A DNA stretch of 64,000 nt from the NCBI GenBank assembly GCA_022843945.1, contig JALHMR010000011.1:62001-126000 (forward strand). Reading direction: 5' to 3'. Source of the stretch: Rhodospirillaceae bacterium (GTDB lineage Bacteria > Pseudomonadota > Alphaproteobacteria > CACIAM-22H2). Shown here piece after piece: positions 16,978-21,794 of this stretch (positions are counted from its first letter, which is position 1; every line of letters begins with the position of its first letter). The notes under the pieces are model-generated. The model ran no database searches. It saw only the letters and a list, made by a program, of their open reading frames with translations, and was not told the DNA's origin. A program made the translations under genes and the position numbers.

Positions 16978-17051
16978 TGGAGCGGGTGAAGGGAATCGAA
17001 CCCTCGTCGTAAGCTTGGGAAGCTTCTGCTCTACCATTGAGCTACACCCGC
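16978..17051 (-). tRNA. tRNA-Gly(CCC)
   Basis: A 74-nt cloverleaf on the minus strand: acceptor GCGGGTG/CACCCGC, D arm GCTC-AATGGTA-GAGC, anticodon loop TTCCCAA with anticodon CCC, T arm AGGGTTCGATTCCCT, discriminator T and an encoded CCA end. It fits bacterial tRNA-Gly isoacceptors closely; the first anticodon-stem pair (G-A) is imperfect. It reads GGG codons, which are used in this GC-rich genome. Confidence 0.93.
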
Positions 17052-17137: not shown

Positions 17138-18906
17138 TTACGAGGCGGCGATCGGCGGGCCGTCAAAACGGCAAAGAATGCGCCCGCCGCTGGTCGCGCC
17201 GTATAGCGTCACGCCTCCCGGCTCGCTCGAGCCGGCATAGGCGACCCAGCCGCCGCGATCCGGCAACCCGTCGAGGGGTACGCGCGGTGGCAGGATCAGC
17301 CGGGGAAACCACTCGCCGACGCCCATCGCCACGCCGCCTGGCGACACCGCCAGAACCATCAGTTCCGGTGCCTCGACGAGATCCGCCCAGTAACCCCACA
17401 GGCGGACGCCGCCTTGGACCTGGCGCGTGCCGCTGAGCCGCCCGTTGCAGGGGGCGATGGCGCCATCGAGACTGGGCAACGGTCTGCCGATGGCGCGGGT
17501 CAGCTCACGGTCAAGCGGCGGCAGCCCCTTGTCGCGAAGCCACGCGCGCACTGCTGGACTCTGCTCATAGTCGAGCTCCTGGGCGCTGGCGTACTCGGTC
17601 TCGCGGACGAAGGCGAGAAAGGCGAGGTTACCGAGCCTGACCTCGTGTTTGAACGTGATCTGGCGAAGCCCCGACTGAACGTCGAGTGGAATGAGCAGCA
17701 GGATTGTCGCCAGCCCCGCCCCGACGCCTGCACGAAGCAACCAGGGGCCGCGGCGCCGGCCGGCGGCCCAGGCCAGACGAGCCGAAATCGCCGCCCAGAA
17801 CACCATGGTGGCCATGTAATCCGAAGACTTTGCCAGCGGCGTCCAGGGCGTGGGCGGCGGAGGCTGATGCTTGATGACCGAGGTGACGACCCAGCCAAGG
17901 GAAAACACGATGACGCCGAGGATGGCGATCTTGCCACGGTCCCGTGGCGGCCGGAGAAGCGCGCTGATGCCTATGGCGGTGCTGGCGAGGAGCGCGCCGG
18001 TACCGATGACGATGGCGAAAGGAACCGAGAGTTGCGAGAGCGGAGTGACGAACAGGACGCTGGCAACCGGCGCGCCGATGACTGTGACCAGGGACTTCAC
18101 GAAGTGAAAAGGATCGAGCAGGTTGGCGAAGCCGCCGCGACCATGGCCGAAGAACCCGGAAGTGCCGGCAAAAAAGACCGTCAAGGTCGCGGCCCCGACG
18201 AGCAGAATGGCGAACTGGGTTCTGAACGAAGAACGGGTCAGCAACGCGGTGACGACCAATGCCGGCCAAACCAGGAGCCCGGGTGCTCCGGTGTAGGTGG
18301 TGGTGATCGCCAACGACAGCACCGCGACGAGCAGCGTCTTGCGCCGCGCCGCCATCGGCTCGGTTTCCTGCCGTGCGAACATGAAGAACGTCAGGGCCGC
18401 GAGCAGCAAGGTCAGTGGCACCCACGCGCGGTAAGGCCAGACGAAGCCCTCTGCGTTGGTCAGCGCCAAGACGAGAGCGAGGGCCATGGCGTAGGCCAAA
18501 CGCCAGGCGACCGCGTCGTGCCCCAGGCGACCGCGTCGTGCCCCAGGCGACGGGGAATGGCGCGTGCAAGATAGATGAAGAAGCCACCGAGGGCGGTCAG
18601 CAAGATGACAAAACCCGACCAATAGCGGCCACCAAACACGCTCATATCGGCATAAGTCAGGAGGCTGACGACCACCATTCGATGATTCTCGTATTGCATC
18701 CAGGCCGCAGGCAGAATCCCTCCTTGCGCGACAATGTTGCCCAGGAATATCCAGGTGTCGTGGCTGGGCAGGGTGACCCGACCCAGCGTCAGAAACACAA
18801 GCGCCAGCGCGGCATGTAGGCCCGCGAGAACCAGGCAGCCATAGGACAGCAGGTTGAGGCCGGTACCTCGCTCCTGTCCCCAGCGCAGAAGCGCTGGCGC
18901 TCTCAA
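17138..18906 (-). pseudogene. Multi-pass membrane protein gene broken by a 20-bp tandem duplication
   Basis: Two overlapping frames together make one protein of about 580 residues. The N-terminal frame (start 18906) runs to about residue 126 with LARAIPRRLGHDAVAW; the second frame carries on with the same LGHDAVAW and then RLAYAMALALVLALT up to the stop at 17138. Between them is a 20-bp unit repeated 2.45 times (18503-18551). Removing one copy joins the frames exactly, so the duplication is what breaks the gene. The product has about 10 hydrophobic helices and an early YENHRMVVVSLLTYAD motif like the EHR-type loop of polytopic glycosyltransferase-like (GT-C) proteins. It could be a recent mutant, a phase-variable gene or an assembly error. 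Confidence 0.8.
18503..18551. repeat. 20-bp tandem duplication inside a membrane protein gene
   Basis: The unit ccaggcgaccgcgtcgtgcc occurs at 18503-18522 and 18523-18542, followed by the first 9 bases again (18543-18551). A single-copy ancestor would already have carried the 9-bp word twice, 20 bp apart, which is a natural substrate for slippage. Twenty is not a multiple of three, so copy number sets the reading frame. Confidence 0.95.
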
Positions 18907-19150
18907 GAGGGGCTCCTCTGCTGAGCCGGATGATGCATCGCTTCGTCTCTGGGCATCTCCGGGAATGAAGCAGCACTCATAGGGCCGTGGCCGCTAGCGT
19001 AGAGAGAAAGCCTGAATCGGAACGCCAGCAGCCTAAATACAGGGTGGCTTCATCTTTCGCCAGCCTTCGACAAGCCGTTCCAGGTTCGATCGCTAGCAGA
19101 GGGAGCGCGATAGACGAGGCCGTGCGGGCAGAGTAAGACCCTCCTGTCCC

Positions 19151-19660
19151 ATGGCCTCGCGCGACGACAATGTCATCCCGATCCCGACCCCACCGAGCGG
19201 TGAGCCGCATCCCAGGATCGCGCGCATGATCGCCTATTGGCGCGAGATCGCGCCGGGCGCGGGCCTCTTGCCGGGCAAGCAGCACTTCAATCCGATGCGT
19301 GTCCCCGACCTGCTGCCGAACCTCTGGCTGCTCGACGTGGTGCGGGAAGAAGAGGGGCGCTTGCGTTACCGCTTCCGGCTGGTTGGAGACGCTCTGATCG
19401 ATTCCGGGGCGCCGTTCCGCAAGGGGCTGTTCGTCGATGAGCTCGGCGACCAGATCGACCAGGCGGCGGCAAAGGCCCTTCATGACCGCGTGGTCGAAAC
19501 CCGCCAGCCCGACTGGCGTCGCGGCCCGCCCATCGTCAAGCACCTGAAGTTCATCGCGCTGCTCGAGCGCGTGCTCCTGCCGCTGGCCGAGGACGGAAGG
19601 ACGGTCGACTACATCCTGGCAATGACCGTCTTCTATCAGATGGATGGGCGGATTATCTGA
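19151..19660 (+). CDS. PAS-domain protein (PAS_5 type)
   Basis: A 169-residue protein made of little more than one domain. RMIAYWREIAPGAGLLPGKQHFNPM and DLLPNLWLLDVV (read as separate blocks) are typical of the small alphaproteobacterial PAS_5 proteins, followed by RYRFRLVGDALIDSGAPFRKG. These bind a small ligand or act as sensors, but have no output domain; no partner kinase or cyclase is adjacent. Upstream, 240 bp contains no gene I can see and presumably holds the promoter. Family call is good and the role unknown. Confidence 0.8.
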   Translation: MASRDDNVIPIPTPPSGEPHPRIARMIAYWREIAPGAGLLPGKQHFNPMRVPDLLPNLWLLDVVREEEGRLRYRFRLVGDALIDSGAPFRKGLFVDELGDQIDQAAAKALHDRVVETRQPDWRRGPPIVKHLKFIALLERVLLPLAEDGRTVDYILAMTVFYQMDGRII

Positions 19661-19744
19661 CGCTGGCTTGCTAGGCCTCTACACGGATATTTTATTTCCT
19701 GCCGGCGCTCCGGAATGCGAAGGTCGCTCGCAGGAGACCCAAGC

Positions 19745-20701
19745 ATGCCGCCGCCTTCCGCCCTGGCCGAGAAAACGCTCGATCCGCGCAAATTCCGCGA
19801 TCCCCGGATCACCGCCAAAGGGGATCGCCGGGCCCACGTCGCGCTGCGCCGCTTGCGCACCCTGTGGTTCAACACCGGCACGCTGTGCAATCTCACCTGC
19901 CGCAACTGCTACATCGAATCCTCGCCGACCAACGATCGGCTGGCCTATCTGACCGCGGCTGAGGTGAATGGCTACCTCGACGAGATCGAGCGCGACCGGC
20001 TGGGCACGGAGGAGATCGGCTTCACCGGCGGCGAGCCGTTCATGAACCCCGAGCTCTGCGCCATGCTCGACGACTGTCTGGCGCGTGGCTTCCGGGTGCT
20101 GGTCCTGACCAACGCGATGAAGCCGATGATGAAGGTCAAGGACGCGCTGCTGGCCGTGCAGGCGCGGGCCGGTGGCCGGCTGACCGTCCGTGTGTCGATC
20201 GACCATTACAGCCGCGACCTGCACGAGCTCGAGCGCGGCAGGCGCAGCTGGGCCCCGGCCCTCGCCGGCCTGCGCTGGCTGGTCGATAACGGTTTCAGCG
20301 TGCATATCGCCGGCCGCACCTTCAGCGGCCAGAACGAGACCGAGATCCGCCAGGGCTTCGCCCGCCTGTTCGCCAGCGAAAATCTGGCGATCGAGGCCGC
20401 CGACAGCCAGAGCCTCGTGGTCTTTCCCGAGATGGACGCGCGCGCCGACGTGCCGGAGATCACGGAAGCGTGCTGGGGCATCCTCAACCTGTCGCCCGAT
20501 GCCATGATGTGCGCCTCGTCGCGCATGGTGGTGAAGCGCAAGGCTGCCGGTCGTCCGGCGGTGCTGGCCTGCACGCTGCTGCCTTACGATCCGCAATTCG
20601 AGCTTGGCGCCACGCTGGCGGAAGCCTCCGGCGCGGTGCCGCTCAACCACCCGCATTGCGCCAAGTTCTGCGTGCTCGGCGGCGGCTCGTGCAGCAAGTG
20701 A
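19745..20701 (+). CDS. Radical SAM protein
   Basis: The protein has 318 residues from the ATG that follows AGGAG by 8 bases; an ATG 10 codons upstream lacks this. The [4Fe-4S] motif CxxxCxxC is C48, C52 and C55 (TLCNLTCRNCY), preceded by RTLWFNTGTLC. GFTGGEPFMNPEL is the SAM-binding GGE motif. Extra cysteines near the end (C305, C309, C316 in CAKFCVLGGGSC, and C259) could ligate an auxiliary cluster, as in SPASM-type or similar enzymes. Substrate unknown. Only a 104-bp palindromic repeat separates it from a metallophosphoesterase on the same strand, which suggests a joint function. Confidence 0.85.
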   Translation: MPPPSALAEKTLDPRKFRDPRITAKGDRRAHVALRRLRTLWFNTGTLCNLTCRNCYIESSPTNDRLAYLTAAEVNGYLDEIERDRLGTEEIGFTGGEPFMNPELCAMLDDCLARGFRVLVLTNAMKPMMKVKDALLAVQARAGGRLTVRVSIDHYSRDLHELERGRRSWAPALAGLRWLVDNGFSVHIAGRTFSGQNETEIRQGFARLFASENLAIEAADSQSLVVFPEMDARADVPEITEACWGILNLSPDAMMCASSRMVVKRKAAGRPAVLACTLLPYDPQFELGATLAEASGAVPLNHPHCAKFCVLGGGSCSK

Positions 20702-20707
20702 CGAAAC

Positions 20708-20805
20708 GCCCCCTCACCCTAACCCTCTCCCCGAAAGGGAGAGGGGATCAGAAAGAAACCCCCTCGCCCCCCGTCCTCGGGGGGAGAGGGTAGGGTGAGG
20801 GGGGC
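20708..20805. repeat. Long inverted repeat between radical SAM and phosphoesterase genes
   Basis: The left arm GCCCCCTCACCCTAACCCTC (from 20708, continuing TCCCC) is matched almost perfectly by the right arm ending at 20805, with an inner hairpin CTCTCCCC-GAAA-GGGAGAGG. The right arm runs up to the ATG of the phosphoesterase gene and takes the place of its ribosome-binding site. It belongs to the same CTCACCC family as the other intergenic repeats here. Confidence 0.85.
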
Positions 20806-21672
20806 ATGACCGTCCTCACCCTCGGCACCCTCGAAGGCCCCGTCCTCGTCTTCGGCGGGCCTTACGGCAACCTCGAGGCGACGCAGGCGCTGCGCGCCGC
20901 CGCCACGCGCCATGGCATCGCCGCCAGCAATATCATCTGCACCGGCGATATCGTCGCGTACGGCGCCGATCCGCAGGCGGTGACGGATCTGATCCGCGAC
21001 TGGGGCTGCGCCGTGGTCATGGGCAACTGCGAGGAGTCGCTCGCCGCCGATGCCGAAGATTGCGGCTGCAACTTCAACGAAGGCTCGGCCTGCGCCGCGC
21101 TCTCGGCGCGGTGGTTCGCCGCCACCCGCCGCGACCTCGATACTGAATCGAAACGCTGGATGGGCGCGCTGCCGCGCCGGATCGACTTCAGGCTCGCTGG
21201 AAGACGGTTCGCGGCCGTACATGGTTCGCCCTCCCAGATCAGTGACTGGGTCTTTGCCTCGACAGCGACTGCTGCGAAGCAGGCGGAGATCGGCGTCACC
21301 GGTGCCGACGGCATCATCGCCGGCCATTGCGGCCTGCCGTTTACCGACATCGCGGGCGACAAGCTCTGGCACAACTCGGGCGCGCTGGGCATGCCGGCCA
21401 ACGATGGTACGTCGCGGGTCTGGTACTCGGTCCTGACGCCAACGGCCGACGGGCTCGACATCGCCCACCATTCGCTGGACTACGATCACCCGGTCGCCGC
21501 CGCCAAGATGAAGACGCGGGGCTATCCCGCGGAATACGCCGAGTGCCTGGGGACCGGCCTGTGGCCCTCCTGCGATATCCTGCCGGCTGCTGAAGCAGCG
21601 GTGCGGGGCCGCAGGCTGTCGCCCCAGCCGCGGCGCTGGCTTGCCATCGCTTCGCCCATCGCCGCGGAATAA
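20806..21672 (+). CDS. Atypical metallophosphoesterase-family protein
   Basis: A 288-residue protein with the calcineurin-like phosphoesterase plan, but with changed metal motifs. The usual first motif (GDxHGN) is GGPYGN at residues 17-22, lacking both Asp and His; motif II is intact (TGD48IVAYG); GNHE is GNCEE (N74, C75); HGSPS and AGHCGLPF match the last two motifs. CGCNF near residue 84 adds two Cys. The pattern GGPYxN looks like a stable subfamily rather than decay, because the rest is well kept. It may bind one metal, use Cys ligands, or be non-catalytic. It follows the radical SAM gene and precedes the metZ riboswitch. Confidence 0.75.
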   Translation: MTVLTLGTLEGPVLVFGGPYGNLEATQALRAAATRHGIAASNIICTGDIVAYGADPQAVTDLIRDWGCAVVMGNCEESLAADAEDCGCNFNEGSACAALSARWFAATRRDLDTESKRWMGALPRRIDFRLAGRRFAAVHGSPSQISDWVFASTATAAKQAEIGVTGADGIIAGHCGLPFTDIAGDKLWHNSGALGMPANDGTSRVWYSVLTPTADGLDIAHHSLDYDHPVAAAKMKTRGYPAEYAECLGTGLWPSCDILPAAEAAVRGRRLSPQPRRWLAIASPIAAE

Positions 21673-21685
21673 GCCCAACCAGCGC

Positions 21686-21714
21686 TTGACAGAAATGCCC
21701 GTGTCGTCTTTATT
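21686..21714 (+). promoter_or_regulatory. Sigma70-type promoter of metZ
   Basis: A perfect TTGACA -35 box (21686-21691), a 17-base spacer and a weaker -10 TTTATT (21709-21714) place the transcript start at about 21720, right at the first base of the riboswitch. The match of promoter to aptamer position supports it. Confidence 0.7.
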
Positions 21715-21718
21715 GGCC

Positions 21719-21776
21719 GCACGTGGTGATTTGAGCCGACCGGCTTGCGGGCCACGTTAAAGAAACCGCTAAAATG
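21719..21776 (+). ncRNA. SAM-II riboswitch upstream of metZ
   Basis: The segment matches the SAM-II (metA motif) consensus: P1 arm ACGTGG (21721-21726) pairs with CCACGT (21752-21757); the conserved loop TGATTTGAGCC and the CCGGCTTGCGG segment lie between them; GTTAAAGAAACCGCTAAAA follows as the A-rich and pseudoknot part. SAM-II riboswitches bind S-adenosylmethionine and shut off methionine biosynthesis genes in Alphaproteobacteria. The location 81 bp before metZ, directly after a promoter, fits. Sequence identity to the consensus is clear by eye. Confidence 0.93.
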
Positions 21777-21794
21777 GTCGGAGGCCCTTTTAGC
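21768..21794 (+). promoter_or_regulatory. Antiterminator linking SAM-II aptamer and terminator
   Basis: GCTAAAA (21768-21774), the 3' pseudoknot strand of the aptamer, is perfectly complementary to TTTTAGC (21788-21794), the foot of the terminator stem. Without SAM this 7-bp helix can form and spoil the terminator; with SAM the GCTAAAA strand is tied up in the aptamer. The mechanism is inferred from complementarity. Confidence 0.6.

Follow-up and report, generated by a model that had tools for sequence, protein, structure and literature searches.

Structure of the locus

On the minus strand of the window, the 64,000-nucleotide stretch of DNA analysed here, a gene of 1.77 kb runs from a TTG start codon at 18906 to a stop at 17138 and is divided between two reading frames. 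Its 5' part (18460..18906, minus strand) encodes two predicted membrane helices, between which lies an outer loop bearing the motifs D-T-W and E-N-H-R, and its 3' part (17138..18502, minus strand) encodes, in the other frame, the remaining membrane helices and a C-terminal domain. Start signals are intact, with an AGAGGAG sequence resembling a Shine-Dalgarno (SD) site just upstream of the TTG. Just 3' of the region coding for the second helix lies a perfect 20-bp tandem duplication of 2.45 copies (18503..18551, minus strand). The unit CCAGGCGACCGCGTCGTGCC begins at 18503 and 18523 and is followed by a partial copy at 18543-18551; the 9-bp sequence CCAGGCGAC thus occurs at 18503, 18523 and 18543 as a direct repeat bordering the unit. 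Head-to-tail copies are 100% identical over the 49-bp array, with 29/29 overlapping bases in agreement, and a 29-base self-match at lag 20 is expected about 4e-12 times by chance in 64 kb. The array also has the highest TRF score in the window (98, the runner-up reaching 75). The coordinates, unit and copy number given in the original prediction, namely two copies plus 9 bases, are right.

The upstream frame, which encodes PRRLGHDAVAW, leaves register after the duplication and terminates at 18460, yielding an ORF of 148 codons; the downstream frame encodes RLGHDAVAWRLAYAMALAL. When both frames were read throughout the 1.77-kb gene, no other stop or frameshift was found beyond the duplication. 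Loss of one 20-bp unit would restore the frame, joining the RRLGHDAVAW reading to the downstream frame as had been proposed. The further proposal that slippage could add or remove a copy holds for removal in terms of the frame, but gain of one unit (+40 bp in total) would not restore it and gain of two (+60 bp) would be needed.

A survey of 1.26 Mb (about 23% of the same genome) for perfect duplications with a unit of at least 12 bp and not a multiple of 3 returned three frame-changing cases in all, including the array at 18503-18551, which is the only one to disrupt a gene internally. The second, at L060 7042-7085, has a 17-bp unit in 2.6 copies with a border repeat; it covers the stop codon of an ORF of 572 codons that looks GGDEF/EAL-like by eye, and each unit carries a stop. 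The third, with a 16-bp unit, is apparently intergenic.

Comparison with homologues

An intact paralogue of 546 residues is encoded elsewhere in the same genome, on contig C44. In tblastn alignments, its residues 19-116 match the window in frame -2 as far as 18535 and its residues 108-544 match in frame -1 from 18541. Residue 108 maps to both 18561 and 18541, a distance of exactly 20 bp, and the junction contains no further gap; the duplication alone therefore accounts for the frame switch. Three distant homologues belonging to a different order of the phylum (L090, L093 and L094) align to these two frames as well, and a profile combining them with the paralogue scores 68.5 bits against the downstream frame and 29.9 bits against the upstream frame. 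Because the paralogue and all three distant homologues match both frames, the extra 20 bp is best regarded as a derived insertion, with translation ending at 18460 as a result. The paralogue lacks exactly these 20 bp and no similar array occurs in any of the four homologues examined, which points, indirectly, to a single-copy ancestor through homologues of roughly 20-36% identity rather than through an orthologue. The homologues (the paralogue and the L090 group) are single proteins, not split ORFs, and lack the extra 20 bp. The earlier statement that a polytopic membrane protein gene is broken by the duplication is supported.

Identity of the encoded protein

Hydropathy analysis places helices at residues 16-46 and 95-118 of the upstream part, flanking an outer loop of about 50 residues that contains the motifs LPSHDTW (SHDTW) and YENHRM (ENHRM); some eight more helices and then a C-terminal domain follow in the downstream part. 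At the equivalent place the distant homologues carry VPYGDSWD or a similar motif and HNEHR, followed by FGG or FGD, with GDSWD and HNEHR in the loop of L090. The L090 gene is flanked by a short-chain-dehydrogenase-like gene on one side and an epimerase-like gene on the other (read by eye). The paralogue adjoins a family 2 glycosyltransferase (GT2, PF00535) with C-terminal hydrophobic stretches. Such GT2 proteins usually partner GT-C enzymes whose substrates are polyprenyl-phosphate sugars. Two helices around a D-x-W outer loop, many further helices, a C-terminal domain and a GT2 gene beside the paralogue all resemble the GT-C glycosyltransferases paired with GtrB/ArnC/DPM1-like GT2 proteins. 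Unlike those enzymes, the window copy has no adjoining GT2 gene, and its protein gave no match in Pfam, NCBIfam, PHROGs or PDB sequences. A single-sequence structure prediction of the downstream part was too poor to use (pLDDT 41). Since the loop motifs and the paralogue's GT2 neighbour are set against the lack of any curated-family or structure match, a GT-C-like membrane glycosyltransferase is a plausible and reasonable identity, no more, and the earlier assignment to this class holds to that extent.

Loci L002, L090, L093 and L094 make up an orphan GT-C-like family marked by D-x-W and (H)NEHR motifs in the outer loop; it is sparsely distributed across the phylum, and Pfam, NCBIfam and PDB sequences returned no match to it. 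At the paralogue locus (L069 5797-9838), the GT2 gene and a radical SAM/SPASM gene come after the intact gene. A radical SAM gene likewise lies within about 1 kb of the window copy, a gene type common to both loci.

Distribution and genomic setting

Just downstream of the broken gene lies a tRNA-Gly (CCC) gene (16978..17051, minus strand). In another member of the family (G012, locus L096), tRNA-Gly(CCC) adjoins a divergent gene for a Cys/Met-metabolism PLP enzyme, whereas in the window (17138-21672) genes of these two kinds are 4.7 kb apart. The intervening block contains the broken gene, a PAS_5 gene, a radical SAM gene and a gene for a calcineurin-like phosphoesterase. Third-position GC is 0.69 and 0.82 in the two gene pieces, 0.85-0.92 in the neighbours and 0.72 in the paralogue. 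Together with the G012 comparison, this lower third-position GC would fit a 4.7-kb block that may be a gained segment. Insertion of an island into the 3' end of tRNA-Gly was considered and ruled out, as the broken gene lies on the 5' side of the tRNA. A SAM-alpha riboswitch (RF00521, 68.9 bits) is found at 21713-21793, upstream of the Cys/Met-metabolism enzyme gene.

No orthologue of the gene was detected in 60 related genomes. These include the only further genome from the genus and another 21 from the family, all lacking a detectable relative. Nor was an orthologue found in 384 other genomes sampled from the class, where profile searches scored the best three candidates per genome, in pattern scans of genomic and viral contigs, or on the plasmids searched. 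The broken gene is accessory.

Origin and effect of the duplication

In the single-copy form of the gene, two copies of CCAGGCGAC would lie 20 bp apart, and replication slippage, or an equivalent event, that mispaired them would generate exactly this 20-bp duplication. A short direct repeat bordering the unit is the standard signature of duplications made by slippage. The insertion would shift the frame of an accessory GT-C-like gene and bring translation to a stop at 18460, after the first two helices; the truncated product would retain the outer-loop motifs and lose most of the membrane domain. Because the 148-codon ORF keeps only these two helices, loss of the protein's function in this genome is the most likely outcome. 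The event looks recent, since no other lesion is seen in the gene. The process seems to be active elsewhere in the genome, as the 17-bp, 2.6-copy duplication with a border repeat lies where it does no harm, at the 3' end of a different gene. Overall, a recent, accidental and in principle reversible knock-out by slippage is the probable explanation, and clearly a better one than an artefact or a selected switch.

For duplications of this kind, reversibility in principle is established by published cases. In the penA gene of Burkholderia thailandensis, de novo repeats with the same direct-repeat layout reverted at 9.3e-7 and 3.6e-5 in two alleles, the longer repeat more often (PMC4169377). As in the window, these are two-unit in-gene duplications with a short border repeat, their units span 9-60 bp, and they are revertible; the penA cases, however, were selected as in-frame changes of enzyme activity (PMC4169377), whereas the window holds a 20-bp frame-breaker. 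Microhomology-mediated duplications in ssp1 of fission yeast, reviewed in PMC13207564, likewise involve a microhomology pair, duplication of one unit and a premature stop, but they are eukaryotic and were seen as reversible variants, while the window duplication is bacterial. As for any short tandem duplication, loss of one unit could revert the window allele more frequently than point mutations revert. A literature search on deletion rate as a function of repeat length in E. coli found nothing direct.

Other explanations are considerably less probable than an accidental knock-out. The first, a rather unlikely one, is an assembly or consensus error, the real genome having one unit and an intact gene. 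It would fit a draft assembly of 82 contigs and a gene otherwise undamaged, and a consensus drawn from mixed alleles could have followed the longer path. Nevertheless, an ordinary short read is longer than the 49-bp array and would presumably span it, which makes an artefact less likely, and perfect frame-breaking duplications are not in excess in the 1.26 Mb of the same assembly.

Slightly less probable again is a phase-variable switch, in which frequent gain and loss of the 20-bp unit would toggle a surface sugar under selection. Surface glycosyltransferases are typical targets of phase variation, the 29 bp of homology between copies would favour unit loss, and the penA reversion rates show that such alleles can revert. 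Capsule genes of Streptococcus pneumoniae are reported to be switched by short, spontaneous and reversible in-gene duplications (Waite 2001, 2003, as cited in PMC4243769 and PMC4022640). There, as here, a short duplication turns a glycan-synthesis gene off, but in the pneumococcal case switching was observed in culture, whereas the window offers one static sequence. Against this reading, contingency loci have a many-unit tract or an unusually mutable site, and the array has two units and ordinary microhomology. Direct-repeat pairs of at least 9 bp with a spacing of 10-100 bp number 111 in the window versus 63.5 in Markov-shuffled DNA, 28 of the 111 would alter the frame if duplicated, and 9-bp microhomology is ordinary in this GC-rich DNA. 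Special enrichment of the locus in microhomology was ruled out, the gene having two other 9-bp pairs with spacings of 33 and 75, both multiples of 3. With no array in the four homologues, an accessory gene and no orthologue found to show recurrence, the on/off switch raised in the original prediction is not supported. That a two-unit microhomology duplication here is a natural, often reversing switch of an orphan GT-C-like surface glycosyltransferase in an alphaproteobacterium is quite doubtful.

Least probable, and very much so, is that the gene remains functional with both copies of the unit, by ribosomal frameshifting or as two coupled ORFs (the 148-codon N part and a downstream restart): both frames are open across the overlap and the nearest in-frame ATG 3' of the duplication (18485..18487, minus strand) would let the stop at 18460 and a restart at 18487 overlap, but that restart is unsupported, neither a slippery sequence at the junction nor a clear SD before the ATG is evident by eye, the homologues are single proteins, and the break between helices 2 and 3 separates the outer-loop motifs from the remainder.

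Implications

The locus cleanly captures how a short duplication, reversible in principle, can break a gene, and such duplication-broken genes get annotated as two ORFs. As it stands, it amounts to a single, ordinary mutation of an accessory gene; if toggling were true, duplication-based phase variation would extend to another bacterial group.
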